Shown here: one piece after another, positions 1 through 23,646 of the stretch
Layout of the letters: every line of letters starts with the position of its first letter
Numbering within the stretch: position 1 is the first letter of the stretch
IMG/VR virus record: IMGVR_UViG_3300042731_003427
Coordinates: 1-23,712 of that record
Reading direction: 5' to 3' (one strand)
DNA: 23,712 bases
Source: a virus
Made by a program: the position numbers and the translations under genes
The notes under the pieces: generated by a model
Told to the model about the DNA's origin: nothing
The model's database searches: none
The model's input: only the letters and a program-made list of their open reading frames with translations

Positions 1-3000
1 TTCTTGGCCGCGCTGCGGGCGCCCTCCGTGAACCGGGTATTCCTGATTCTTTCCTCCCACGCGCCGCTGCGCAGGGCTGAGGAGAAGCCCAGGGACTGGT
101 AGATCGTCTCCAGTGTGCCGAACTCCTCCGGCTGCACAAACACCTCACCGGTGCGCGCAGTCACGCCCTCGGTGCCCTGCGAGTACGCCTTGAGCGGATC
201 GCGTACCAACTTGGGCAGCATCAGCTCCATGCCCTTCTGGACGTTGCCGGCGGAAACCTGGTCGATGCCCTTGGCCATGTTCATCCCGAGCCCGCCCCAC
301 ATGGGGCCGAGCAACCCAAAGATGGTCTTCTGGTACCACTCCTCAGCGCTGTTAGCGTCGGCGTTCTGGCTCATAAGCAGCAGGCCGTCCATGCCGACGC
401 GGCTCGCCACGTCCACTCCCAGGCCCCGGAGCGGGCCGCGGGCGACCATCTCCGCGGCACCGGCGCCCATCGCCTCTTCCAGGGAGCTGTAGATCAGGTC
501 GTCAAGCTCCTCGTCGTCCCAGTCCCCGAACAGCCCGGTGATGTTGACCAGCGCCCGCAGGGGCTCGGTGAAGATGCCCCCGAGCACGCCGGCGGCGAGG
601 GTGTGCGACGCCATGATGAGGCCGAACGTCTTCAGGTCCGCCTTGTCTCGCGCGTCGAGCTTTTTGCCGTCCAGCTTCTTGCTGATCGACCGCATCAACG
701 GCAGCGCCGTCAGGGCGTACATACCCTGTGCGTACATCTTGAACATGAACAGGGTGCGCCCGCCGGGAATCGAGCCGGCGGCCTTGAACCACGGCGGCTT
801 GTTGCTTTCGGCGTAGACAAACTGCGTCTGGTACACCGCTTCGCTTGCCGCTTTAATGCGCGCCTCGGTCGGCCCCTTGGCCATCTCGAACGCTGCCGCG
901 GCCATCATGACGCGGTTGACGTCCTCCACCGCCTGCGGCGCGACCCGCAGCAGGCTGACTGCCTTGTCCATCCAGCTCAGCTCAGTTGCACGAGTTGACT
1001 GGAACAACTCTTGGGAGAATGACGCGCCGAAGATGTCCGGGTCTCTGGCCTCCAGCTTCTCCAGCGCCTTGGCTGTCGCCGGGTCGAGCCGGCGGCGCAT
1101 CGACTCGCGGATATCCTCCGCCGGCCGGCCAGCCATGAACCCCCGGACGGCGCCCGAGTAGGCGTCTTGCCAGATACCCATCAGGCTCGTCATCTTGGCC
1201 GCGGACTTGGCCACGCCGTAACGCGAGCCAAGATACGGTAGCCCCACGAGCCAGGGCTGCGAGGCGTTGACAGCGCTGTACGACGGGCTGGACAGGAAGT
1301 AGGCGAATCCGGCCTTGCCGAGCCAGCGGTCCACGTCGTGGATCGTGCGATCAGCCAAAGCCTTCGACTCACGGCGGACCAGTTCCTGTGCCGCTGCACC
1401 CATGCGAGCGTTGTTCGCCGGCGCCTTGCGGCCTTCCTGCAACATGTCCTTGAGGGCTTCGGCGCGATCCCACGCAGTCTCTAGGTCGCCCAGCTCCCAC
1501 GACGCGCCGAACATGCGAGTGGCGACCGCGCGACGCATCTCGTCCGGCTTCACGCCCGGAGTGCCTTTGCGCTCCAAGTCCGTCTTGCGCATGGACTGCT
1601 CGGCCAGCAGCTCCAGCAGGGCCTGCTGCACCTGCTTCTGGATGTCGCGGTTGTCGAGCTTCGCGTTGAGCTTGCCGATAAGCTGGGGGTCGGCGGCGAT
1701 GCCCTGGAACTCCCAGTCGATCTTTCTTGACGGCTCGCCGCCTTCCATCTCGTAGCCGGCGGCCTTGGTGCGCTCGTAGTCGTCCACCGCCTCGGCCCAC
1801 GACTCATGGAACGCCACGTACTCGTCGGCCTCGGCGTCGGCCGCGGTCGGGTCCGCCGGCTCCTTCTTGCCATAGACAACGTACTGCCCGAAGCGCACGA
1901 GCGGGAAGTAGACCTTCAGCTCGGACAGCCGCACCACCTTCTTCGCCGCCTTGCGGGCCGACTCAAGCTCGTCGGCCAGGTCCGGCTCCTGCTGGATCGC
2001 TTGGTCGAACGCAGCGTCGATCTCTGCCGCAGTCGTTGCGTTCCCCAACGCAGAGCGGAGCATCTGCCGGGCCGCCGGCAACCTGAATCGGAAGTCGACC
2101 AACTTGTGCAGCAGAGCCGTCTTCTTCGCCTTGCGGGCATCAGCAAAGAACTCGCGCACTTCGCGATACAGCCTTGCTCCCTCGCGCCCGAGCGCCCGCA
2201 GCTCGCTCAACGTGGGCTCTCGCTGGTCCATCGTCGTGTCCAGCATGAGCTTCTTCAACCGGGCAGCCGTCGGTCCGCCAACGCGACGCTCCCAGCGCGT
2301 CCAGCGGTCGATCAGGGCCTCGCCGCGCTGCTGCCACCCACGCGCGATAGCGCTGCGCCTTTTGTTGGAAACGTTGTAGCGGGTAGCCGACCCGTTTTTG
2401 AAGTCATCCGCAGTCTCGCGGATCAACTGATCCGTTGTCAGGGCGCCGAACCAGCCGTACCCGTGGCGCAGGTTGCTGAGCGTGCTGCGCATCGACGGAC
2501 CAGGCCCCTGGAAGAAGCCCATGACCCGGTTGAAGCCCGGCGGCTTACGCCCGCCGCCGCCTCGTTCGCTGCGCATGACGGCTGCCGCACGCTCCGCCTC
2601 CGTGCCCTCTGCCATGACGTCCTGGATGTACCGGCCGGGAACCTCGTAGCGGCGCTGCATCTGCAGGGCTTGGGGCTGCATGAGATGAGGCGCGACGCTG
2701 AGGACATGGGACAGCAAGGTGTCGTCTGCCGGCGCCAGACCAAGCATGTCTCGGATAGCCTGCACGAGACGCTTCCACAAGTTGAGCGACTTGCCCATCT
2801 TGATTTGGGCGAGCGCGTTCTGGAACCGCGCGTTGGTCAGGGCCTCGGCGACGAACTCGTCGACGTTGACCGTGCCGTAGTGCCCCTTGCCTGTTACCGG
2901 GTCCCATTGCCCGAGCTTTCGTTCAGCAAGCTGGCGAAACGCCTCCATCTGCAGCGCGAGCTTGTTGTCGGTGCGCATCGCTTCCATGGTCGACGCATGC

Positions 3001-6000
3001 ACCAGCTCGTGCAGGAAAGACTTCAGGCCATATTCAGTCCCGCTGCGCGATTCGGCGAGCAGAATCTGCCGACGGTAATTTGGGCCGGCAACGTCCGTGT
3101 AGCGGTAAAGCGCAGACGAGAACGTCTCTCCGGCCACGTCGCCAGCGACTTCAGACAGCTCGGCGTCGTCGAGCACGGCAATGTCGATGTCGCCGACACC
3201 GCTGTCCCGGATCGCCTCAAGGACATGCCGCCAGGGGTCGTTGCTGTGAAGGTTGAACAGCAACGACTCTATAACCTGCTTCGAGTCGCGGTTCAGCTCA
3301 GCGACTTCGACGTCGAACTGCTCCGCGGCCTCGGCGCGCGCTTCAATAATTGCAGCGCGCTGCTCTTTCAACAGGGCGTCGTGCTGCTCCTGCAGCATCT
3401 GCTTGATGGCGTCGGCGCCTGGATCGCGTTGCCGGCGGACGGGGGTATCCGGGTCTGGCTTTGGGATGGCAGCGCGGCGGCGCCCCTTCTTTTTGACGAC
3501 AGCAGCCGCCGCCGGCTTCGGTTGAGTCGAGCCGTATTCTTGCGCTGCCTGCTGCATCTCTTCCGGGGTCATGGGCCGGCGGCGCTCAGCTTCTTCCTCT
3601 GCGCGCTGGGCCTCTCGCTCTTTGCGGACGTCTCCTGGGGCTCTCCCCTCCTTGATAGCGCTGATTGCCTCCTCTTCTGTAATCAGTCTCTCATTGACCA
3701 GCGCAACCCACGGCTCTTCGGCATTAGGACCTTCGTCGATCTCCCTGTCGATCTCCTCTTGGGCTTCGTCAATAGGCTTGCCAGCATCGTCGAGCTGCAC
3801 GTCGAGGGCGGCTTTTGTGTCGGCAAGGCTGCCAGCTTCAGTCGTATCGGATTGGACGCGAACAGGGGCAGGCGTTTGTACCGGCGCCCCCTCCATCTCC
3901 GCCACTGCGATGCGGACCTGCGGCAGAGTGAATAGGCCCCGCGCAGATTTTCCTTGCTGGCCTTTCAGCTTTTGCAGGTCGGCCAGTGTCTTTCCTTTCT
4001 CCTGCAGGAACTTCAGCGCATCTGGAGTAACCTTACCGGCGTCAGGGTGAGGCGCTGGCTTTTTGCGCACGCCCTTCTCCAACTTCATGCCGTCAAGTAG
4101 CTGCACAGCAGCACGAAGCGGCTCTATGATCTGGCTTTGCTTATCTCGCCCAGCAGGCTTCGGGTTGCTCTCGGCAACTTGTTTGCTGAGATAGTCGATA
4201 GGCCCAGCGACCGCCTTGCGGAACGCTTCAGCATCTTCTCGGGTAATGTCCTGGTTTTCGTTGACGGCATCGCGGAGCTTTCGGAACGCAACGAGCGCGT
4301 TCTGTGCATCCTGCCGGAAGCTCTCCGCCGAATACGGGTTGACTTGCTGTCGCGCCTGGCGCTGCCCGCCCTTGCTGGTGCGACTTTCGTCGAACCAACG
4401 ATAGCGCGCTGCGAGCGCTTCAAGCGCGAAGATCGCGTCGTTCTCTGCGGCGGCATTCGTCTTGGGCTGCCGCGCATCGGCGACCGCGGCAGCCGCCGCA
4501 TAGGACGCGCGAGTAAGCTCTAGCTGACGCTCTTCCGGGTCCGTACCTTTCTTGAACTCGGGCGCCATTGACGGGTCGCGCACGGCGGCCGGCTCAAGGT
4601 CGACGTCCTCAGTATCAAGGTCTTCCTGGATGATTGGCTCAGCTTCGGCCTTCTTGGCCTTTTTGACCTCCTCAACTTTGGCCGGGCCTTTGGGCTCGGC
4701 CTTCTGCTTGGTCTGCCCGCGGACTACGCGCATGTAGTCGCCGACAGTGATCTTGCCGCCTGCACCTGTGCCGAAGGCCAACGTCTTGCCGTCACCGACG
4801 AAGTCGACTTCGGACAGATCGACCCCGTCCTTGTTCGCCATCTCGCGAACCTTGGGGCTGGTATTTTTCACCTGCGCGTTGCGCTTGGCGAGCGGCAGCT
4901 CTTCCGCCAACTCTTCGAGTCGCGCCTGCTTAGCCTTCTCGCTTTCTGCTACCACCTCCGCAGCGGCGGCTTGCGCTTCTTCCTTCCCCTTCGCGACCTT
5001 CTTCTTAGGCTTCTTCTCCTTCTTGACCGGCTCCGGCGGGGGCTCGCGCTCCACGAACAGGTCGTCTACTCGGCCCTCAGCCAGTGCCGCATTGACGTTG
5101 GCGACGTTCTCGGGCCGCACGAGGATGGTCGTGCCGTCGTCCTCAGTGATGACCTCAAGGCCCTTCTCCTGCGCCTCGGCGATCGTCGCGTCGGTGACGC
5201 CCACGGCGCCCCACTGCGTGCCCTTGAGCACAGCGTCGACGCCCGCCCCCTCTGCCGCAGCATCGGGAGGGGTCGGAATCGGGGACGGCTCCGCGCCGGT
5301 GTCCAGGTCAGGCTCTCCCGCGGGGCGGTCTCGCGCTGCCTCACGCGCGGCTGCGACAGTGCCGCCACCCACTGCGCCGTACCCGCCACCAGCAATAGCA
5401 CCGGCCGCGGCCCGGTCGCCGGCCTCCCAAATGTCCATCGCCGCGTCTGTACCGACGCGCTCGCCGATGTACTCGATCACGCCTTCCTGGAACGCTTCTG
5501 TCACAGCCTCTTTCGTGCCCGCCTTCCCAGCTTCTTTGGCTACCCGCTTCCAGCCGGCCTCCATCGCCTCTTTCGCCAGAATCTCAGCACTCCCCGCCCC
5601 TGCGTCAGCGATGCCCTTAGCACCGATGCGCTCCAGCATGGCTGACGCCAGGGCAAACGGGGCCGCCTCCAGCGTATCGACGATGTCCGGCGCCTCCTTG
5701 CCTTTGTTCTCCGCACGCTCCGCGCCTATCTCGTAGCTGCGTGCCGTGATATAGCCCGGCAGGTTGACTACCGCGGCAACCATGTCAGGGATGGACGCAA
5801 TACCAGAGTGCGCGATGTACGCACCAGTCTTGCCCAGTGCGGAGAGCGTCCCGCCTTCCTTCCAAGCCTCCTTGACCTTGTCCCACTCGTAGTCGTCGAC
5901 GCTGCCCAGGTCGACTCCCCGCCAATACTCGGATGCCGCGGCCAGCGGCTGTTTGAGGCCCTGCTCCTCCAGCTCTGCAAACTCTTCCGGCCCCACGAAG

Positions 6001-7043
6001 CGCAGGCCGCCATCGCCCCAGACAAGCCCGCCGCCCAACCATGGCAGCTTCTCTTCCAGGTACTGGCTGAGCTGTTCGCCGGCGCCAAACACCGCACCCC
6101 CCAGGTCAGCGGCTCGCTCTCCCGCGGCGCGCACGGCACTGCTCCACAGTCCCGGCTGCTCGGGCGCCGGCGCCTCGACGGGCTCTTCGCGGCGGATCGG
6201 GACGTAGTCCTCGAAGACGCTGTCCAGCGCAGCCTCTTGGGCTTCCGGTGGCGGGGGCGCCTGTTGCGCCTGTCGCTGTGCAAACTCGGGAATGTGGCCG
6301 CGGGGGTTGAACTGCGGCCAAGGCGAACGACTCCGATCTGGCAAGCTGTGTGGGCTGACCGCCGGGCCGCCGCCGGCGGCAGACGCCATGCGGGGGTCGA
6401 TGCCAGCACTGATACGCTGGCGGAGCTTCTGGTCGTAGTCGCGCCCCCACTTGCCCAGGCTCTTCCACGCAGCCCCGGAGTGGTGGCCAATCGCGGCCTT
6501 GTGCCAGTCGCCCTGGTGCTTGTAGGCGTCGATGAGGTGCCGCGCCGCAGCGTCGGCGCTGGCGTAGGGGTCCATCCGGTCCTTGAGCCCGTAGGCTTGG
6601 GCCGTCTTGGTCATGAACTGGAACGGACCCAGGGCACGGTCGCCGGCGTGGGTCATGTCGCCGCTGATTTCTGTGCCAATGGCCTTGCCGCGCATGTTGC
6701 GCCCGAAGCCGGACTCGATGTCAGCGATGGCGTAGAGATAGTCGCGGGCTTTCGGCGGCAGACCGTACTTGCTGACAGCCTGCTCAATGCCGTCAGCGAG
6801 GGCACGTTGGTAGTCACCACCTTCGGCGGAGGGCGGCCGGTAGCTGCCGGCAGAGGGCGAAGGGGTTTGGGCGGCGCGCTGCTCCGCTACAGGGCGAAGC
6901 TCGGCGAAGAAGTCCTGCGACTCGTCGTCCTGTGCAGCACGCTGTTCGGCGATGGGGCGAAGCTCGGCGAAGAAGTCGTCTTCGGGCGGCGGAGCGGCCG
7001 GCGCGGCCGGTGCCCGCGTCAGGTCAATTGCTTGCTCCGCCAC
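1..7043 (-). CDS. Giant polyvalent ejection-type virion protein, partial (lytic transglycosylase + HExxH + PLxRFG)
   Basis: One frame stays open from a GTG at 7043 to the left edge, giving 2347 residues with no stop, so the C-terminus is missing. GAGG lies 8 nt upstream of the GTG, and the start overlaps the previous gene by 20 nt. Seen in order: a 21-residue tandem duplication (about 25-60); an SLT-like transglycosylase domain (about 85-215) with probable catalytic E110 in IESGF and the motif GPFQFMTKTAQAYGL; a hydrophobic/Gly-rich block around 400-560 with TKEAVTEAFQE from T510; Lys/Ala/Pro/Glu linkers around an E2-binding-like segment (725-775); HELVH at 1345-1349 with downstream E1396/E1400; PLVRFG at 1714-1719; and a long helical C-terminal block from about 2022. 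By family knowledge, giant PLxRFG phage proteins with SLT domains are virion proteins that enter the host envelope with DNA, like T7 gp16. The role is inferred; the open frame and motifs are seen. Confidence 0.93.
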   Translation of the reverse strand, partial: MAEQAIDLTRAPAAPAAPPPEDDFFAELRPIAEQRAAQDDESQDFFAELRPVAEQRAAQTPSPSAGSYRPPSAEGGDYQRALADGIEQAVSKYGLPPKARDYLYAIADIESGFGRNMRGKAIGTEISGDMTHAGDRALGPFQFMTKTAQAYGLKDRMDPYASADAAARHLIDAYKHQGDWHKAAIGHHSGAAWKSLGKWGRDYDQKLRQRISAGIDPRMASAAGGGPAVSPHSLPDRSRSPWPQFNPRGHIPEFAQRQAQQAPPPPEAQEAALDSVFEDYVPIRREEPVEAPAPEQPGLWSSAVRAAGERAADLGGAVFGAGEQLSQYLEEKLPWLGGGLVWGDGGLRFVGPEEFAELEEQGLKQPLAAASEYWRGVDLGSVDDYEWDKVKEAWKEGGTLSALGKTGAYIAHSGIASIPDMVAAVVNLPGYITARSYEIGAERAENKGKEAPDIVDTLEAAPFALASAMLERIGAKGIADAGAGSAEILAKEAMEAGWKRVAKEAGKAGTKEAVTEAFQEGVIEYIGERVGTDAAMDIWEAGDRAAAGAIAGGGYGAVGGGTVAAAREAARDRPAGEPDLDTGAEPSPIPTPPDAAAEGAGVDAVLKGTQWGAVGVTDATIAEAQEKGLEVITEDDGTTILVRPENVANVNAALAEGRVDDLFVEREPPPEPVKKEKKPKKKVAKGKEEAQAAAAEVVAESEKAKQARLEELAEELPLAKRNAQVKNTSPKVREMANKDGVDLSEVDFVGDGKTLAFGTGAGGKITVGDYMRVVRGQTKQKAEPKGPAKVEEVKKAKKAEAEPIIQEDLDTEDVDLEPAAVRDPSMAPEFKKGTDPEERQLELTRASYAAAAAVADARQPKTNAAAENDAIFALEALAARYRWFDESRTSKGGQRQARQQVNPYSAESFRQDAQNALVAFRKLRDAVNENQDITREDAEAFRKAVAGPIDYLSKQVAESNPKPAGRDKQSQIIEPLRAAVQLLDGMKLEKGVRKKPAPHPDAGKVTPDALKFLQEKGKTLADLQKLKGQQGKSARGLFTLPQVRIAVAEMEGAPVQTPAPVRVQSDTTEAGSLADTKAALDVQLDDAGKPIDEAQEEIDREIDEGPNAEEPWVALVNERLITEEEAISAIKEGRAPGDVRKEREAQRAEEEAERRRPMTPEEMQQAAQEYGSTQPKPAAAAVVKKKGRRRAAIPKPDPDTPVRRQRDPGADAIKQMLQEQHDALLKEQRAAIIEARAEAAEQFDVEVAELNRDSKQVIESLLFNLHSNDPWRHVLEAIRDSGVGDIDIAVLDDAELSEVAGDVAGETFSSALYRYTDVAGPNYRRQILLAESRSGTEYGLKSFLHELVHASTMEAMRTDNKLALQMEAFRQLAERKLGQWDPVTGKGHYGTVNVDEFVAEALTNARFQNALAQIKMGKSLNLWKRLVQAIRDMLGLAPADDTLLSHVLSVAPHLMQPQALQMQRRYEVPGRYIQDVMAEGTEAERAAAVMRSERGGGGRKPPGFNRVMGFFQGPGPSMRSTLSNLRHGYGWFGALTTDQLIRETADDFKNGSATRYNVSNKRRSAIARGWQQRGEALIDRWTRWERRVGGPTAARLKKLMLDTTMDQREPTLSELRALGREGARLYREVREFFADARKAKKTALLHKLVDFRFRLPAARQMLRSALGNATTAAEIDAAFDQAIQQEPDLADELESARKAAKKVVRLSELKVYFPLVRFGQYVVYGKKEPADPTAADAEADEYVAFHESWAEAVDDYERTKAAGYEMEGGEPSRKIDWEFQGIAADPQLIGKLNAKLDNRDIQKQVQQALLELLAEQSMRKTDLERKGTPGVKPDEMRRAVATRMFGASWELGDLETAWDRAEALKDMLQEGRKAPANNARMGAAAQELVRRESKALADRTIHDVDRWLGKAGFAYFLSSPSYSAVNASQPWLVGLPYLGSRYGVAKSAAKMTSLMGIWQDAYSGAVRGFMAGRPAEDIRESMRRRLDPATAKALEKLEARDPDIFGASFSQELFQSTRATELSWMDKAVSLLRVAPQAVEDVNRVMMAAAAFEMAKGPTEARIKAASEAVYQTQFVYAESNKPPWFKAAGSIPGGRTLFMFKMYAQGMYALTALPLMRSISKKLDGKKLDARDKADLKTFGLIMASHTLAAGVLGGIFTEPLRALVNITGLFGDWDDEELDDLIYSSLEEAMGAGAAEMVARGPLRGLGVDVASRVGMDGLLLMSQNADANSAEEWYQKTIFGLLGPMWGGLGMNMAKGIDQVSAGNVQKGMELMLPKLVRDPLKAYSQGTEGVTARTGEVFVQPEEFGTLETIYQSLGFSSALRSGAWEERIRNTRFTEGARSAAK
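6892..6977 (-). repeat. 63-nt-spaced in-frame duplication at the N-terminus of the giant protein
   Basis: A 23-nt identical block occurs at 6892..6914 and 6955..6977, offset by 63 nt. The frame is kept, so the peptide DFFAELRPxAEQRAAQ appears twice, 21 residues apart. Confidence 0.85.
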
Positions 7044-12429: not shown

Positions 12430-12514
12430 CAGGCCAGCTCCACCATACCGCGCACATAAACGCAGCGCCCGCCAGGACGCCAAGGATGAACGGAAAAACG
12501 TGTTCGGGATGCAT
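12419..12514 (-). CDS. Tiny single-TM protein, 31 aa
   Basis: The ATG at 12514 overlaps the stop of the collagen-like fibre gene (TGATG), so translation is probably coupled. The protein is MHPEHVFPFI followed by a hydrophobic stretch (about 8-26, LGVLAGAAFMCAVWW) and ends SWPDDG. The single hydrophobic helix and the position at the head of the lysis genes fit a small holin-like or accessory lysis protein. It has one cysteine but no lipobox. Its size makes it easy to miss, and its reality rests on the coupling and composition. Confidence 0.5.
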   Translation of the reverse strand: MHPEHVFPFILGVLAGAAFMCAVWWSWPDDG

Positions 12515-14535
12515 CAGATTAACTCAGAACCTCCCGTAATGTTGAACGGGTTACCACCGGGGATTGTATTGTTCGCTTGCACCAAAGATAACCTTTCGAT
12601 GGTCCCCTGATTAGCAATGGCCGCACCCGATTCGACAGTAAATGTAGCCGCCCCGTATTCGACCATTGATGCGTTGGTAGCTCGAAGGAACTGCGAGCAT
12701 GCAAAGAGTTTTTCGCAGATGAGTGTCGGAGTCCACATTGTCACAGTGCCTGTGTTCACGAAGAACCCGTAAACGGGGGAACCCTTAAGCCTTATCTGAG
12801 AACCATTATAAATGTTCAGCAGCCCTTTTGATTGTGCTGCGATGCACCTATTATCAGATTCGATAGTCATATTGTTACTTAGCTCAACGCGAGCTGTTGG
12901 GCCATTGGAAATAATTCCGAAATTTGCCGCAACGGTTATATCTGCGAATCGAATCCAACCGCCGTCTATCCTTATCCCGGTCCCGCTTGCCGGGTTGCCG
13001 CCAATAACCACTCCACCAACATTACTTGAATTACCTTGAACGACGACCTTGTTTGAACCTACAAGGCCCGGAAGCGCTATCGTTCCATAAGTGCCGTCAG
13101 CAACATAAATTGTAACCTCGGCTCCGACGTCCATTTGCGCACTTACCCGATTCAGCGCTTCCTGAATTGTGCTCAACGGAGATGCGGAAGAAGCCCCTGA
13201 GTTCGAATCGCTACCTGTTGCTCCGTCGACATAAATGGCCTTTGGCGACACGACCAACTCGCGACCAGGGTGGATGTGATCAGCCCTGCTGACCTCGTTG
13301 GATGTGCCAGAGGAGCCTTCCCCCATCAATGACTTTGGGGCGACGTTGCTTAGGATGACGCTGGCGTCATCACCTGCTGGACCCTGCGGGCCGATGGGTC
13401 CATCATCCCCTTTCGGGCCTTGCGGGCCTTGCTCGCCCTGAGCACCATCGGCGCCCTCCGCCCCTTGGGGGCCTCGGGCACCGTCGTCCCCTTGGGGGCC
13501 TCGGGCACCGTCGTTCCCTTGGGGGCCTTGGGCACCGGCCGCGCCTTGGGCTCCGTCGTCCCCTTGCGGGCCTTGGGGGCCTGGGACCGTAGAATCGGCA
13601 CCTTGCGGGCCTTGGGCGCCGGCCGCGCCTTGGGCCCCGTCGTCCCCTTGCGGGCCTTGGGGGCCTGGGACTGTCGAGTCCGCGCCTTGTGGGCCCTGAA
13701 CTCCATCGGCGCCTTCGACTCCCTGGGGCCCGTCGTCCCCTTGCGGACCTTGAGGGCCTGGGACTGTCGAGTCTGCCCCTTGCGGGCCTTGGGCGCCGGC
13801 CGCGCCTTGTGCACCGTCAGCCCCTTGAGGTCCCTGGGGGCCTGGGACTGTCGAGTCTGCTCCGGCCGCGCCCTGTGGGCCGGCTGCGCCTTGTGCGCCG
13901 TCGTCCCCTTGAGGCCCCTGGGGGCCTGGGACTGTCGAGTCCGCGCCTTGAGGCCCTTGGGTGCCGTCAGCTCCTTCCGCCCCCTGGGGGCCATCGTCCC
14001 CTTGCGGCCCCTGGGGGCCAGGGACGGTCGAGTCTGCGCCCTGTGGGCCTTGGGCTCCCGCAGCGCCTTGTGCGCCGTCGTCCCCTTGAGGCCCCTGGGG
14101 GCCTGGGACTGTCGAGTCTGCGCCCTGTGGGCCTTGAGCACCGTCAGTGCCTTGAGCCCCATCGTCTCCTTGAGGCCCCTGGGGGCCTGGGACTGTCGAG
14201 TCAGCGCCCTGCGGGCCTTGGGTACCGTCAGTGCCTTCTACCCCTTGGGGGCCGGTATTCCCTTGAGGCCCTTGAGGGCCAGGGACGGTCGAGTCTGCGC
14301 CCTGTGGGCCTTGGGCTCCCGCAGCGCCTTGGGCGCCATCGTCCCCTTGAGGCCCCTGTGGGCCGGGGACAATCGAGTCTGCGCCCTGTGGGCCTTGGGC
14401 GCCATCAGCGCCTTGGGCTCCATCAGCGCCTTGGGGGCCTTGAGTTCCATCGTTTCCTTGGGGACCTTCGAACTCAGGATAGTTCGCTGGGTCAAGAACC
14501 TCGGTCGGGATCGGGAACTCTGTAATGTTGGCCAT
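12514..14535 (-). CDS. Collagen-like tail fibre with probable beta-helix tip, 673 aa
   Basis: This is probably a trimeric fibre. Residues 1-23 are a short non-collagen head. Residues 24-390 are Gly-X-Y triplets dominated by GPQ, GDD, GAQ and GAD, broken ten times by the four-residue interruption STVP (once SIVP). Residues 416-424 hold SRADHIHPG, an H-x-H motif seen at fibre domain borders. From about 430 the sequence is beta-rich and reads like a pectate-lyase-type beta-helix (KAIYVDGATGSDSNSGAS, then many short beta turns), likely the receptor-binding or glycan-binding tip; no enzyme active site is evident. The ATG at 14535 follows the previous stop by 2 nt. The tip-coding part is much less GC-rich than the collagen part. 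There is no prolyl hydroxylase nearby, so the triple helix would rely on Gly-Pro-Gln-type triplets. Confidence 0.92.
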   Translation of the reverse strand: MANITEFPIPTEVLDPANYPEFEGPQGNDGTQGPQGADGAQGADGAQGPQGADSIVPGPQGPQGDDGAQGAAGAQGPQGADSTVPGPQGPQGNTGPQGVEGTDGTQGPQGADSTVPGPQGPQGDDGAQGTDGAQGPQGADSTVPGPQGPQGDDGAQGAAGAQGPQGADSTVPGPQGPQGDDGPQGAEGADGTQGPQGADSTVPGPQGPQGDDGAQGAAGPQGAAGADSTVPGPQGPQGADGAQGAAGAQGPQGADSTVPGPQGPQGDDGPQGVEGADGVQGPQGADSTVPGPQGPQGDDGAQGAAGAQGPQGADSTVPGPQGPQGDDGAQGAAGAQGPQGNDGARGPQGDDGARGPQGAEGADGAQGEQGPQGPKGDDGPIGPQGPAGDDASVILSNVAPKSLMGEGSSGTSNEVSRADHIHPGRELVVSPKAIYVDGATGSDSNSGASSASPLSTIQEALNRVSAQMDVGAEVTIYVADGTYGTIALPGLVGSNKVVVQGNSSNVGGVVIGGNPASGTGIRIDGGWIRFADITVAANFGIISNGPTARVELSNNMTIESDNRCIAAQSKGLLNIYNGSQIRLKGSPVYGFFVNTGTVTMWTPTLICEKLFACSQFLRATNASMVEYGAATFTVESGAAIANQGTIERLSLVQANNTIPGGNPFNITGGSELI
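13582..14364 (-). repeat. Three-fold 261-nt super-repeat in the collagen-like region
   Basis: Nine consecutive units between the STVP breaks have lengths of 28, 31, 28, 28, 31, 28, 28, 31 and 28 codons, exactly three copies of an 87-codon (261-nt) pattern. DNA agrees: the block ctgtgggccttgggctccc at 14041 recurs 261 nt away at 14302. The whole Gly-X-Y region spans 13366..14466. Confidence 0.9.
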
Positions 14536-15199: not shown

Positions 15200-15212
15200 T
15201 AGTGTAGCACTA
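15200..15212. repeat. Small perfect inverted repeat between fibre gene and small-gene trio
   Basis: TAGTG-TAG-CACTA spans the stop codon of the fibre gene. The five-base arms are perfect and the loop is 3 nt. There is no T run, so it is not an intrinsic terminator; it could be an operator or chance. Confidence 0.3.
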
Positions 15213-17108
15213 CGCGGACCACCCGGAAATCGGCACCGAGAACCTAAGCGTCAGGAAAAACCCGTTCCCCCAAGTAAAGGGGGAGGAAGCATCCCACAAA
15301 GCATTGCCTAGTCCTGATGTTTGCCCGGTGGCATGATCTCCGGAAATAATAACTCTCGTTGTGTTGGTACCAAATTGCACTATGTTTGCAATGCGCGTGT
15401 TGAGGACGGCCGCGTTATAGGCATGGGCTACGCCCAAGAAATTTGACCCGGCAGAACGTGGCAGTTTGCTGTTGTTGATGGCGTGGCCTCTCCCCGTGTC
15501 TAATGTGAACCTCCATTTTCCAGACCCGCCGGAGGTAGTGCTGCCGAATGCTAGATAAATCTCATACTCAGCTTCATCGCCAATCCGCCTCCATCTACCA
15601 GACAACGTGCCGTTACCGATTGACGGGTTCGTAGTGATGCCTTCCCATGTCGGGGTGTAGGTCGTCCAGCCGGTCAGGTTCGGCGAGGCATCTCCTTGGG
15701 GACCTTGAGGACCTTGAGGGCCTGTTGGGCCTCTTGACCCCGTGTTACCTTTGGGGCCTTGAGCACCGTCGTCTCCTTGGGGGCCTTGGACGCCTCGGGC
15801 ACCTTGGGGGCCTTGAGCGCCGTCGTCCCCTTGGGGGCCTTGGGCTCCTAATGCGTCAATCGCCTGCTTGACTCTCAGCGGCGAGAAGATTCGCCCTCCA
15901 GACTCGGTTCCCACTTCTGCTTCCGCTTGGCTTACCAAGCCAATCCCCGACCCGAGGACAAACTCTGAGATGCGATCTACCGTCGCCCGACGATATGCCC
16001 CGGCGGAACCATCCCAGATCATGAATCGGTCGCTTTCTTCCAGCGGGTTACCTAGCTGTGCCTGGCTGTTGATGGCGTACCGGGCGTCCCCTCGGGCGTT
16101 GGTGTGATATTGGGGGTGGTCGTCATCCGCGCGACCCGTCAGGGCGCCGTGATCTGAGACGCCGAGAGCGGCAATGGCTTGCTTGACTCTCAGCGGCGAA
16201 AAGATTCGCCCCTGGGTCTCTGTTCCTGCTTGCGCCTCGGCTTGACTTGCAAGGCCGATGCCCGAACCAAGAACGAACTCAACAATTCGGTCTACAGTCG
16301 CCTGCGTTTGCTGCCCCGTCGAATCGTCGTAGACCAGAAACTTGTCATCTTCAGTCAACTGGTCGTTGATGTTCGGAAGGCCGGTAATGTCCAAGCCCGC
16401 GCCTTGGGCATCAATCGCCTGCTTGACTCTCAGCGGCGAAAAGATTCGCCCCTGGGTCTCTGTTCCTGCTTCAGCTTCCTGCTGCGTAACAAATCCAATA
16501 CCAGAACCAAGAACGAACTCAACAATTCGGTCTACAGTCGCCCGCGTTAGCAGTCCCGTCGAGTCGTCGTAGACCGGAAACTTGTCATTGGCAGTCAACT
16601 GGTCGTTGATATTCGGAAGGCCGGTAATGTCCAAGCCCGCGCCTTGGGGGCCTTGGGGGCCTTGGGCACCGTCGTCCCCTTGAGGCCCCTGCTCGCCGAC
16701 TATAGACACCGGCCCCGTACCGGACCAAGTGCCGAGCGCCTTCGGTCCCCACCACGCGCCGGCCGAAGGGTCAATGTAGTAGTCGCCATTCTGGCCAAGC
16801 GTATCAGGCGGCGACCCAGTACCAGAGAACCAAGTGCCCCCGAGAACGCGAGAGAACACATCCCCATACCGGCTGTCGAAGTAGGCAGTGATCGCGTCCA
16901 AGTCGCGCACGCGGAGAGCGCTATCCACAACCCGCCCCTCGCGCCGCAGAAGTACCTCCACCGCGTCCATCACAGCCTGCAGCGTCGTGGTCAGGGCGTT
17001 GACGTCGTTGATGGGCGCCGGGAACCCAGGCTCTACTCGACGGCCCTCCAAGACCCGGACGTCAAAGAGATTCAGAACGGCTCGACGAGTGGTTAGGCGG
17101 GAACTCAT
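15210..17108 (-). CDS. Tail fibre with two collagen-like segments and internal repeats, 632 aa
   Basis: The start is placed at the ATG at 17108 because it overlaps the previous stop (ATGA); the open frame to 17186 would add 26 Arg-rich residues inside the upstream gene. Residues 1-90 are a helical head (LTTTLQAVMDAVEVLLRR). Residues 95-135 are the fibre motif GTGSPPDTLGQNGDYYID. Residues 138-156 are short Gly-X-Y. Residues 157-236 and 237-316 are two near-identical 80-residue units ending RIFSPLRVKQAI, with a third diverged copy at about 345-420; HGALTGRADDDHPQYH at 320-335 is a common phage-fibre linker. Residues 421-472 are a second collagen-like stretch. Residues 478-632 are a beta-rich tip. 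Probably a trimeric host-recognition fibre or head-fibre-type protein; the role is inferred from domain style. Confidence 0.9.
   Translation of the reverse strand: MSSRLTTRRAVLNLFDVRVLEGRRVEPGFPAPINDVNALTTTLQAVMDAVEVLLRREGRVVDSALRVRDLDAITAYFDSRYGDVFSRVLGGTWFSGTGSPPDTLGQNGDYYIDPSAGAWWGPKALGTWSGTGPVSIVGEQGPQGDDGAQGPQGPQGAGLDITGLPNINDQLTANDKFPVYDDSTGLLTRATVDRIVEFVLGSGIGFVTQQEAEAGTETQGRIFSPLRVKQAIDAQGAGLDITGLPNINDQLTEDDKFLVYDDSTGQQTQATVDRIVEFVLGSGIGLASQAEAQAGTETQGRIFSPLRVKQAIAALGVSDHGALTGRADDDHPQYHTNARGDARYAINSQAQLGNPLEESDRFMIWDGSAGAYRRATVDRISEFVLGSGIGLVSQAEAEVGTESGGRIFSPLRVKQAIDALGAQGPQGDDGAQGPQGARGVQGPQGDDGAQGPKGNTGSRGPTGPQGPQGPQGDASPNLTGWTTYTPTWEGITTNPSIGNGTLSGRWRRIGDEAEYEIYLAFGSTTSGGSGKWRFTLDTGRGHAINNSKLPRSAGSNFLGVAHAYNAAVLNTRIANIVQFGTNTTRVIISGDHATGQTSGLGNALWDASSPFTWGNGFFLTLRFSVPISGWSA
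16161..16640 (-). repeat. Tandem 240-nt repeat in the fibre gene, with a third diverged copy
   Basis: Two 80-codon units lie end to end at 16401..16640 and 16161..16400; ccggtaatgtccaagcccgc begins both at 16381 and 16621, exactly 240 nt apart. A third, more diverged copy covers about 15849..16076. Confidence 0.88.
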
Positions 17109-19672
17109 ACCGATGCCAGCTCCTTGCCCGTTTCTGCCATCTTGAAGTGGTGCAAGGCAGCGTTGCCGCGGAACTCTACTTGCCAAACGTCATGCTTGTA
17201 TCCAAGAGGCAGGCGATAGCGGCCTGGCTGAGTTATGCGCCGTTGGTACTTCAACTCACCGTCAGCGTAAAGCAGCACTTCGACGTAAGTATTTTCAAAC
17301 AGCGATGCCGGGAAAAGTACAGACCCACCAACCGGCGCTCGACTCTGCGCGAGCGGGCCGGACGCAAACCCACTGTCGTCTACGACGCGCGTCATACCTA
17401 TAGCGGACCAATCCAGTGGGTCTAGTGGAGCTGCTGCAATACGCTCTTTGTTCCACGCGACCTGTACCTCAAGCGCAAGGTTAGCGTCGTCTGGAGACTG
17501 ATCTATGGATAGCCGCGGGTCAAAGTCGATTCTGTACGCGCCGAAGTTTACCGGCTTTGGGGTGACGAACTCGATAGACTTCCAGCTATACAGCTCTGGG
17601 CGCGCAGCGTAGTTTGCCCAAAGATATATCCGCCCGTCAGCTATAGCGTAAACCTCTCCGCTCCAAACATCGTGCTGCAAAGAAACAATATCTCGCTGCA
17701 GTGCGAGATTAGTCTCTGTAAACACAGACTCCGCTTCAGTGGGGTTGAATATAAACCCGCGCTGCGACTGCCCCAACGTATCGCCCCCCAGCACTATAGC
17801 AATGTACTGCAGGCCAAACTGCGCTGCGTGGATTCTGGTTGGGAAGTAGCGGGTATTCCACTCGCCTCGCGTCACTAGCTGCTTGGTAATCGTTGTGACG
17901 CCAGACGGGCCAAGAAGCGTAACGCCGTTGTTGCTTGCGTACAAAACGCCCGCTTCGGTAGACACGACGCTATTACGACTGACGCACGGGGCAGCTACGT
18001 TCGACTTTGTAAAGCTCATATTCGCCGGATTGGACCCGGACAGAATATAAGGGTGCGAAGTGGTCGGCACGCCGATACTCTGGCCGAACACCCCGAGCGC
18101 CATGATCTCTCCCTCTGTACTCAACACGTACTGAGGGGGCCAAGCATGCGGGCGATACGGCTCAGAAAAGTAAATATCATACGGCGGCACGAAACCTACG
18201 AAGAACCCATTAGGATGGCGGACGATCCCAATGAGCCCTTTCGGAGGGGGCTCCCACGAGTCGGATTCAAGCTGCTGGTTCAAGGAGACGTCATCTGTGC
18301 TGACGTCGTCCTGGTACTCGGCTACGCCAATGTCTACTTCGTCGACAAAAAAGAACGACCCGCCAGTGTCCCCGGTAACTGTACGATAGATGCGCTTCTT
18401 CGTAATAAGCGCCTCGGTGTCCCAGGGCGCCTTTGGTGCAGTCTGTATGTTCTTCAGGCTCCACCCACTATCATCAGCACCCTCGGCACAAACCGGAGTC
18501 GCCGGGGGGCCTTCCTCTCCTGCCGCGGTGACGAACGTGTAGGTATAGCACCTGGTAACGAACAAGTCAGAGTCGTCGACCGGAGTAAGTGGGTCTTCGC
18601 CGACCGTAAATGTAACCGTGCCTTCTCCGGTATTGTCGAATTGATCCGACACTTCGAATTTTACAGTCTGAGAGCCGGCAATCGTCGGCACACCAGAGAT
18701 AACACCTGTATCCGGGTCTAAAGACAAGCCTTGCGGCAGTGTGCCTTCGGCTATGTCGAAGGTGTAGTACGGCTTCGTATCCAGCGACCCATCGACCCAA
18801 TAGCCTCCGCCCTCTACTGGGATGGCCGTTATGAACCCGTCGCCGACCCTAGCAGGCGGCGAAGGGATAGTCCAAACGGCTATAGCCTCTGTGTCATCCC
18901 CCGTCAGCTCTGTAGCGAGAACGGTGAACGTAAAATTGAGTGAGACAGTAGTCGGGGTGAGGCTATCAGAATCAGACACCTCAATAGTGACTGCCTGCAC
19001 TCCAGGCGTCGTCGGCGTACCATATATAACGCCAGACGCTGTATCCAGCTCCAGCCCATTAGGCATTGCGCCGGCTGTAATCGCGAAATCGTAAGGGGGC
19101 GAGCCGCCTTCCACCAAAATGGTGCGGACGAAAGGAATGTCTTCTTGCAACGACACCGCGAGGGCGCCGGGGTATGCTGCGAATGGCAGCACTGTCGGCA
19201 CCTCATCGGGCGTAACGATTAGCTGTGTCTCGTCTACGGGGCGCGGCACACCAACAAGCAAGGACGGCTTTCCCCTAACCTTCCTGCGCGCGTTCTGGTA
19301 GCGCATGCGGCCTGGTTCTTCCCCTGGCTGATACTCAGTCCAGTACCACCTATTGTACTTATCGTTCGTCAGCGGCCCTTTTAGGAAGTGCGCGAACTCG
19401 GAATCGAACTTAAACCACAAGTCGTTATCAGAGAACTCGCTCGGCGGAGGGGTTGCTTCGACAGGAAGATCGCCGCGCAGAGCTGCCGGGACGCGAAATG
19501 CAGAACGTTGCGTCGGCGCTGTTTCGTCCGTCGCCAAGAGTAGGCCGCGCAGAGCCCGCAAATCGCCAGACAGCAAGTCGCAGTTTTGTGCCAGCTCCGC
19601 AGCGCCAGTGGGGATTTTTTGGCGATTGCGCCGCGGGATCATGCCCGCAAACTTGGCAAACGTGACGTTCAC
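17105..19672 (-). CDS. Tail nozzle/hub-like protein with two inserted Ig-like domains, 855 aa
   Basis: The N-terminus (KFAGMIPRRNRQKIPTGAAELAQNC) and the C-terminal two thirds (KGLIGIVRHPNGFFVGF, FSEPYRPHAWP, PYILSGSNPANM, SRNSVVSTEAGVLYASNNGV) match a phage tail family that I know as the beta-propeller-like nozzle (tail tubular protein B type) of short-tailed phages. Between them, residues about 168-252 and 275-358 are two putative-Ig (He_PIG type) domains, each with the signature GxxPxGLxLDxxSGVIxGxPT. Residues after about 370 resume the parent family with CYTYTFVTAAGEEGPP. The start is the GTG at 19672, which overlaps the previous stop (GTGA). The protein likely forms the tail tip; the Ig domains may bind cell-surface glycans or stabilise contacts. 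The family match is from memory, not a search. Confidence 0.88.
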   Translation of the reverse strand: MNVTFAKFAGMIPRRNRQKIPTGAAELAQNCDLLSGDLRALRGLLLATDETAPTQRSAFRVPAALRGDLPVEATPPPSEFSDNDLWFKFDSEFAHFLKGPLTNDKYNRWYWTEYQPGEEPGRMRYQNARRKVRGKPSLLVGVPRPVDETQLIVTPDEVPTVLPFAAYPGALAVSLQEDIPFVRTILVEGGSPPYDFAITAGAMPNGLELDTASGVIYGTPTTPGVQAVTIEVSDSDSLTPTTVSLNFTFTVLATELTGDDTEAIAVWTIPSPPARVGDGFITAIPVEGGGYWVDGSLDTKPYYTFDIAEGTLPQGLSLDPDTGVISGVPTIAGSQTVKFEVSDQFDNTGEGTVTFTVGEDPLTPVDDSDLFVTRCYTYTFVTAAGEEGPPATPVCAEGADDSGWSLKNIQTAPKAPWDTEALITKKRIYRTVTGDTGGSFFFVDEVDIGVAEYQDDVSTDDVSLNQQLESDSWEPPPKGLIGIVRHPNGFFVGFVPPYDIYFSEPYRPHAWPPQYVLSTEGEIMALGVFGQSIGVPTTSHPYILSGSNPANMSFTKSNVAAPCVSRNSVVSTEAGVLYASNNGVTLLGPSGVTTITKQLVTRGEWNTRYFPTRIHAAQFGLQYIAIVLGGDTLGQSQRGFIFNPTEAESVFTETNLALQRDIVSLQHDVWSGEVYAIADGRIYLWANYAARPELYSWKSIEFVTPKPVNFGAYRIDFDPRLSIDQSPDDANLALEVQVAWNKERIAAAPLDPLDWSAIGMTRVVDDSGFASGPLAQSRAPVGGSVLFPASLFENTYVEVLLYADGELKYQRRITQPGRYRLPLGYKHDVWQVEFRGNAALHHFKMAETGKELASV

Positions 19673-22650: not shown

Positions 22651-23646
22651 TTACGGGGTAGTCACGACCGCGGTCGTCAGCGCCGTGCCGTCCGTCACCT
22701 TGTAACCGTAGACCTGAAGGCCGCGGAGCAAGGTGCCGAAGGTGGACTCAGCCCGCAAGGTCTCGACCTTGCTGAGCTGGCTGGCGAAGGTCAGGCCGTG
22801 CTGGTGGCCGGCGAAGATTTGGAACTCGCCAGCAGCCAGGCTATCTGCAATGCCGGTCGGCAGCAGGTTCGACATGTAGACCGTGAAGCGGTCGATCATG
22901 CCGAGGCGGCCGTTACGCGCGATGGACGTGCCGTCACCGGTCAGCGAGGCGTCGCGCAGCTCGGAGCGCTTGATCATCGCTGCGACCCACGCCGGGATGA
23001 TCAGCCAACGTCCGCTCTCCGGGATGTTCGACTCGTCCAGAACCTGGCCCATGCGGGTAATCAGGTCGATGACCTCCACCTGGCCGGCGGTCGGAGCGCG
23101 CGGCACGATGATCAGCGGGGAAGCCGTGGCACCAAGGGACACGTCGCCACTGATCCGGCCGGCAGTCGCGCCCTTGTTGGCGGCGACGATGTCGGCAGCG
23201 ATGCCGCGAAGCACCTTGGAGTCGATGGTGATCTTCATCTGCTCGGACGCCTCGTCGGCCCACATGCTGAGCAGGTCCAGATCAGCCTGAAGCTCCATGA
23301 CGTCGTCCAGAACCTCGTTGAAGTAGTGGCCCTTGTCGATCAGCAGCTCTACAGTCGGCGACACGGGGCGCTCGACCGTCAGCGGACCATCGACTTCGTA
23401 GTCGCGGATGGTGACGTTGGACTTCTTGCGGATGATGACCTTGTCGCCCAAGGACGAAATCTCGCCTTCGTAATCGGTGTTCGAAATCGCGGCCAAAACG
23501 GTCGCGTCATAGAACTTCTCGATCAGCTTGCCAGACCAGATCGTCGGAATGAACGTCCCGCCGTAACCGGGATCGAAAACAGGGTTGGAAGCTCGTGCGA
23601 CGCCGTCCCACGAGTTTGATGCAACAGTGTAATTGGGTGCTGCCAT
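22651..23646 (-). CDS. Major capsid protein, 331 aa
   Basis: This builds the icosahedral head. The N-terminal segment (GTFIPTIWSGKLIEKFYDAT, VLAAISNTDYEGEISSLGDK) and the middle (FNEVLDDVMELQADLDLLSM, WADEASEQMKITID) match the major capsid protein type that I know from many tailed phages, with an HK97-like fold expected. ESGRWLIIPAWVAAMIKRSE and the beta-rich C-terminus (TLLRGLQVYGYKVTDGTAL) also fit. The 331-aa length is normal for the family and no prohead-protease delta domain is evident at the N-terminus. The start is the ATG at 23646; the upstream ribosome site is weak (GAGAG). It is followed at once by a strong terminator, so this gene may be expressed above the tail genes. Confidence 0.93.
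   Translation of the reverse strand: MAAPNYTVASNSWDGVARASNPVFDPGYGGTFIPTIWSGKLIEKFYDATVLAAISNTDYEGEISSLGDKVIIRKKSNVTIRDYEVDGPLTVERPVSPTVELLIDKGHYFNEVLDDVMELQADLDLLSMWADEASEQMKITIDSKVLRGIAADIVAANKGATAGRISGDVSLGATASPLIIVPRAPTAGQVEVIDLITRMGQVLDESNIPESGRWLIIPAWVAAMIKRSELRDASLTGDGTSIARNGRLGMIDRFTVYMSNLLPTGIADSLAAGEFQIFAGHQHGLTFASQLSKVETLRAESTFGTLLRGLQVYGYKVTDGTALTTAVVTTP

Follow-up and report, generated by a model that had tools for sequence, protein, structure and literature searches.

A giant protein encoded in the window (the whole stretch of 23,712 nucleotides analyzed here) contains, at residues 729-774, a genuine E3_binding-family domain (PF02817), the subunit-binding domain of 2-oxo-acid dehydrogenase E2 enzymes, in a protein where such a domain was unexpected. 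The open reading frame starts with GTG and is open at the window edge (3'-truncated), with its C-terminus beyond the window. The interval 4722-4859 of the minus strand corresponds exactly to these residues, which read SPKVREMANKDGVDLSEV-DFVGDGKTLAF-GTGAGGKITVGDYMRVV, while the plus-strand translation of the same interval is unrelated to the module. An earlier note on this DNA, made from the letters alone, had read an E2-like sequence here, and we have confirmed that reading, on the minus strand. The features are collected in Table 1.

Table 1. Features of the giant protein and of its subunit-binding module, in window coordinates
Feature	Residues	Position	Strand	Evidence
Giant polyvalent DarB-like/PLxRFG protein	2347 aa seen	3..7043	-	ORF; NF032893; PHROG; tblastn
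SLT lytic transglycosylase domain	88-192	6468..6782	-	Pfam PF01464 over cut-off
Conserved region of no assigned function	308-544	5412..6122	-	about 50% identical to giant proteins of Vibrio/Shewanella/Thalassomonas phages
N-terminal linker, 70% K/A/P/E	664-724	4872..5054	-	composition
PF02817 E3_binding match	729-769	4737..4859	-	Pfam profile over cut-off
Helix 1 (predicted), PKVREMANKD	730-739	4827..4856	-	AlphaFold2 with alignment A6; single-sequence run agrees on helix 1
Insertion DFVGDGKTLAF	747-757	4773..4805	-	alignments; low confidence in model
GTGAGGKITVGD loop, family signature	758-769	4737..4772	-	alignments
Helix 2 (predicted)	767-782	4698..4745	-	AlphaFold2 with alignment
C-terminal linker, 68% K/A/P/E	776-806	4626..4718	-	composition
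HELVH motif, HExxH-type, zincin-like peptidase candidate	1345 (motif)	2646..3326 (region)	-	motif and context
PLxRFG domain	1710-2332	48..1916	-	NCBIfam NF032893

The PF02817 profile, which has a curated cut-off of 23.7 bits, scored 24.9 bits over the whole protein, 31.0 bits over residues 700-790 (the segment for which the earlier note had proposed a Pfam search) and 32.3 bits over a 45-residue segment, with an E-value of 1.9e-8 in the window's own record. The gain in score on trimming the biased flanks argues against an artefact of composition. The alignment score against the E2 consensus was 10 SD above shuffles. A profile made from the viral modules described below gave the window segment 31.6 bits versus 20.7 bits by the E2 profile, values that are indicative only because the profiles differ in length and information, and the same viral-module profile found E2 domains in the PDB (E 3.4e-15). 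By profile scan, SLT, E3_binding and PLxRFG were the only domains found in the giant protein, with no lipoyl or acyltransferase domains among them. PHROGs holds no model for the module, and BLAST of the segment against phages, plasmids and IMG/VR gave no direct relative.

Compared with the subunit-binding domain of E2 and E3BP (PF02817; PDB 1w4i, 1w4j, 3rnm, 4qoy), the module has the same pattern P-x-V-R-x-x-A-x4-G-V-D-L-x-x-V followed by GTGxGG-K/R-I and an Asp, the positions kept being the Pro, VR, Ala, GVDL, Val, GTG, the second Gly, Ile and Asp. Linkers on both sides are also common to them, and the two parallel helices that a GTG loop joins in this fold are predicted for the window module, with moderate confidence, when an alignment is supplied. 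The window protein differs in lacking both a lipoyl and an acyltransferase domain, in the replacement of three basic residues (see below) and in about 10 extra residues inserted ahead of the GTG loop, a point that the earlier note had not stressed. The Lys/Ala/Pro/Glu-rich linkers that had been described on both sides of the module are present, these four residues accounting for 35% of the whole giant protein and 22% of the module itself.

With an alignment of 21 viral relatives of the module as input, AlphaFold2 predicted the two helices with a moderate mean pLDDT of 63 and with the insertion poorly defined (another alignment, A3, was too diverse for searching). When this model was compared to the PDB with Foldseek, 23 out of 23 matches at E<=10 were E2/E3BP subunit-binding domains, with a probability of up to 0.94 and a TM on target of up to 0.76, every E-value being above 0.1. 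As the alignment was made of family members, the fold match is a consistency test and not an independent one. The single sequence gave a poor model (pLDDT 56) with a different layout and no PDB match of note, and a fold search of BFVD returned nothing convincing. Hence the AlphaFold model that had been proposed as a check gave the helix-loop-helix with the alignment and failed to do so from the single sequence. With moderate confidence, residues 729-774 are predicted to form a domain of the peripheral-subunit-binding type, two helices around the GTG loop. The assignment to the E2 type was correct on the profile match and on the fold match when the alignment was given.

The giant protein was matched by NCBIfam NF032893 (PLxRFG) with 271.8 bits (cut-off 100), by a DarB-like antirestriction PHROG and, using tblastn, by Bcep22-like phages. 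It has in common with the DarB-like/PLxRFG proteins of these phages (JC1 gp69, Bcep22 gp75) the PLxRFG C-terminal region, the position in the late gene cluster and the giant size. However, the relatives tested are devoid of PF02817, and the window protein has a region common to 37-kb Vibrio phages. JC1 gp69 was detected in purified virions by 51 unique peptides (PMC9144972), and P1 DarB, which its N-terminus targets to the capsid, is packaged and is believed to pass into the cell (PMC9024508). By homology to these proteins, the identification of the giant protein as a virion or ejected protein of a phage, already made in the earlier note, is well supported.

Several other features of this region were recorded. 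The conserved region of no assigned function has its relatives in giant 'methyltransferase' proteins, with different C-termini, from 37-kb phages of Vibrio, Shewanella and Thalassomonas; this region is a mobile module that occurs at 36 loci of IMG/VR and in one Marinobacterium genome. The region of the HELVH motif gave a weak PHROG match to a virion RNA polymerase family. At the N-terminus, a direct repeat DDFFAELRPIAEQRAAQ / QDFFAELRPVAEQRAAQ (residues 22-59, window 6867-6980, minus strand) might serve for packaging, as the N-terminal signal of P1 DarB does. An internal virion protein at 17105-19672 also matches the Bcep22-like phage group, and two tail-fibre-like proteins with collagen-type repeats are found at 12514-14535 and 15210-17186 on the minus strand. 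A candidate second module at residues 1005-1052 (TPDALKFLQEKGKTLADL) had a Z of 4.8 against the E2 consensus but was picked post hoc, and we have rejected it: neither Pfam nor the viral profile matched it, and it bore no similarity to the first copy.

Regarding its distribution, PF02817 was over the cut-off in none of 158 virus records (sets of 9, 50, 49 and 50, some of them fragments) related via the giant protein or the capsid, which suggests that a particular lineage within this protein class gained the module. The capsid protein (22651-23646, minus strand) has many relatives in IMG/VR, with identities of 57-74% among the 80 matches listed. A relative of the giant protein was found in only 3 out of 22 whole records of capsid relatives, matching the C-terminal half only, which suggests that this protein is exchanged between related phages.

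Outside this group, an E2-type consensus searched against IMG/VR detected 26 viral loci (about 21 distinct) with subunit-binding modules. Of these, 23 lie in short ORFs (92-262 aa) and the other three, L260, L264 and L281, in giant ones. The earlier note's view that such a module would be unusual therefore stands for its own relatives, the 158 records above, and fails for viruses at large, since it recurs in at least these 26 loci. All ten ORFs scanned had PF02817 over the cut-off and, in the same ten, no lipoyl or acyltransferase domain was found, none being an E2. Upstream of the module gene, and often immediately so, six of the loci checked (L257, L265, L268, L271, L275 and L282) encode a major head or virion structural protein, and in L265 a head-tail adaptor gene adjoins the module gene. 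Two others are not near head genes: in L277 the module gene (4812-5348) directly follows a DNA helicase gene and in L263 (1150-1935) a similar-looking gene; in both the module lies in the middle of a protein of 180-260 aa. In L266 (4638-5378), short ORFs of 161 and 85 aa follow one another, each with a module of the subunit-binding type. All these modules (L257-L282) are, as in the window, encoded by viral genes and without most of the basic patch of E2; the window copy differs from them in keeping the E2 Pro and one Arg, in its insertion and in lying within a DarB-like polyvalent protein. Matches to the E2 consensus in a phage collection were discarded, as the four unannotated ORFs examined were E2 enzymes and the annotated ones E2 genes. 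The phage-labelled records holding these bacterial genes (OQ572413.1, CAKLQF020000016.1, MT835928.1 and others) look like mislabelled host DNA.

We take R135, R139 and R156 to be the interface residue numbers of the Bacillus stearothermophilus E2 domain. Among 16 E2 domains sampled, R135 is Arg or Lys in all, R139 is Arg or Lys in 15 and R156 is Arg in all 16. The window module keeps the Arg at R135, one of the three interface arginines, and has Glu in place of K136, Asn at R139 and a conservative Lys at R156. Its net charge is -1 versus +1 to +6 in the E2 sample (n=16). The charge of helix 1 is +1 in the window, +1 to +4 in E2 and mostly between -3 and 0 in the 21 viral modules. In E2 domains, basic residues clustered on helix 1 and close to it do the docking (PMC9974300, PMC6270654). 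The basic cluster on helix 1 together with the Arg of the GR motif, which would characterize an E1/E3 binder, is not preserved in the window module. Taken together, the residues at the interface, the Glu at 136 and the net charge indicate that the known docking mode of E2 is not kept in full.

The earlier note had offered two partners for the module, a host dehydrogenase (E1/E3-like) or a component of the virion. The first is disfavoured by the replacement of most of the basic residues and by the mostly acidic helix 1 of the phage relatives, and the second, a putative virion partner, fits better because related phage modules are found beside capsid genes. From this context, docking between virion parts is the better inference: as the related phage modules found lie mostly by capsid genes and lack the basic surface of E2, the window module probably docks a part of the virion and not a host enzyme. 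We consider that there is an even chance that the module attaches the giant protein to a virion partner as a tethered docking domain. It would be a small docking knob, held by long Lys/Ala/Pro/Glu linkers within a polyvalent protein carried in the virion, that would serve in packaging or ejection to attach the giant protein, or a piece into which it may be cleaved, to the capsid interior, the portal or some other protein inside the virion. The surface of such a partner would differ from that of host E1/E3. In favour of virion docking are the family match, the predicted fold, the linkers, the virion-type architecture by homology and the recurrence in proteins of head gene neighbourhoods. Against it, the module is all that the window protein has in common with the small head-gene proteins, P1 DarB is targeted to the capsid by its N-terminus and not by such a domain (PMC9024508), two relatives (L263 and L277) lie beside a helicase-like gene, and the fold has moderate confidence and was obtained with the family alignment only. 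More tentatively, and with less than even probability, phages may on several occasions have adopted the subunit-binding domain of 2-oxo-acid dehydrogenases, shed the greater part of its basic E1/E3-binding face and put it to use as a general docking knob for virion proteins, here for loading or placing a giant injected protein.

Among the alternatives, a generic two-helix adaptor that binds a different host protein or a nucleic acid in the cytoplasm survives best and is still unlikely. The two modules that lie in a replication neighbourhood (L263 and L277) indicate that the fold is not confined to the capsid, and polyvalent proteins have targets in the host (PMC5512222), but head genes were most of the neighbours seen and no nucleic-acid-binding family was matched in the profile scan. 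Less likely is that the module mimics E2 and, after ejection, binds host E1/E3 or another component of the E2 complex, with the phage tampering with or anchoring to central metabolism. It belongs to the same family and fold, keeps the Pro and the equivalent of R135, has a Lys for R156 and a helix-1 charge that touches the low end of E2, and its protein class is expected to reach the cytoplasm (PMC9024508). However, the changes at K136, R139 and R156, the negative net charge, the insertion adjoining the loop and the loss of most of the basic patch in the phage relatives speak against such mimicry. A passive spacer or relic without a binding role is improbable: absence from the 158 related records suggests that the module is dispensable for the protein class, and there is the insertion beside the loop, but all the fold positions are intact, which is unexpected for a relic. 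Chance similarity within a biased linker region, for which the weak similarity of the single sequence to individual E2 domains could be invoked, is extremely improbable given the score gained on trimming the flanks, the distance from the shuffles and the failure of every related record to reach the cut-off.

We have found no published account of such a module in phage proteins in the open-access papers searched, and the domain goes unmentioned in a survey of polyvalent proteins (PMC5512222). A phage protein annotated as E3_binding need not be a metabolic enzyme. How giant polyvalent proteins enter virions and leave them again is largely an open question, P1 DarB needing an N-terminal signal. 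A docking fold of 46 residues, with known structure and binding geometry, found both in a giant protein and in small capsid-adjacent proteins, provides a testable handle on this question.
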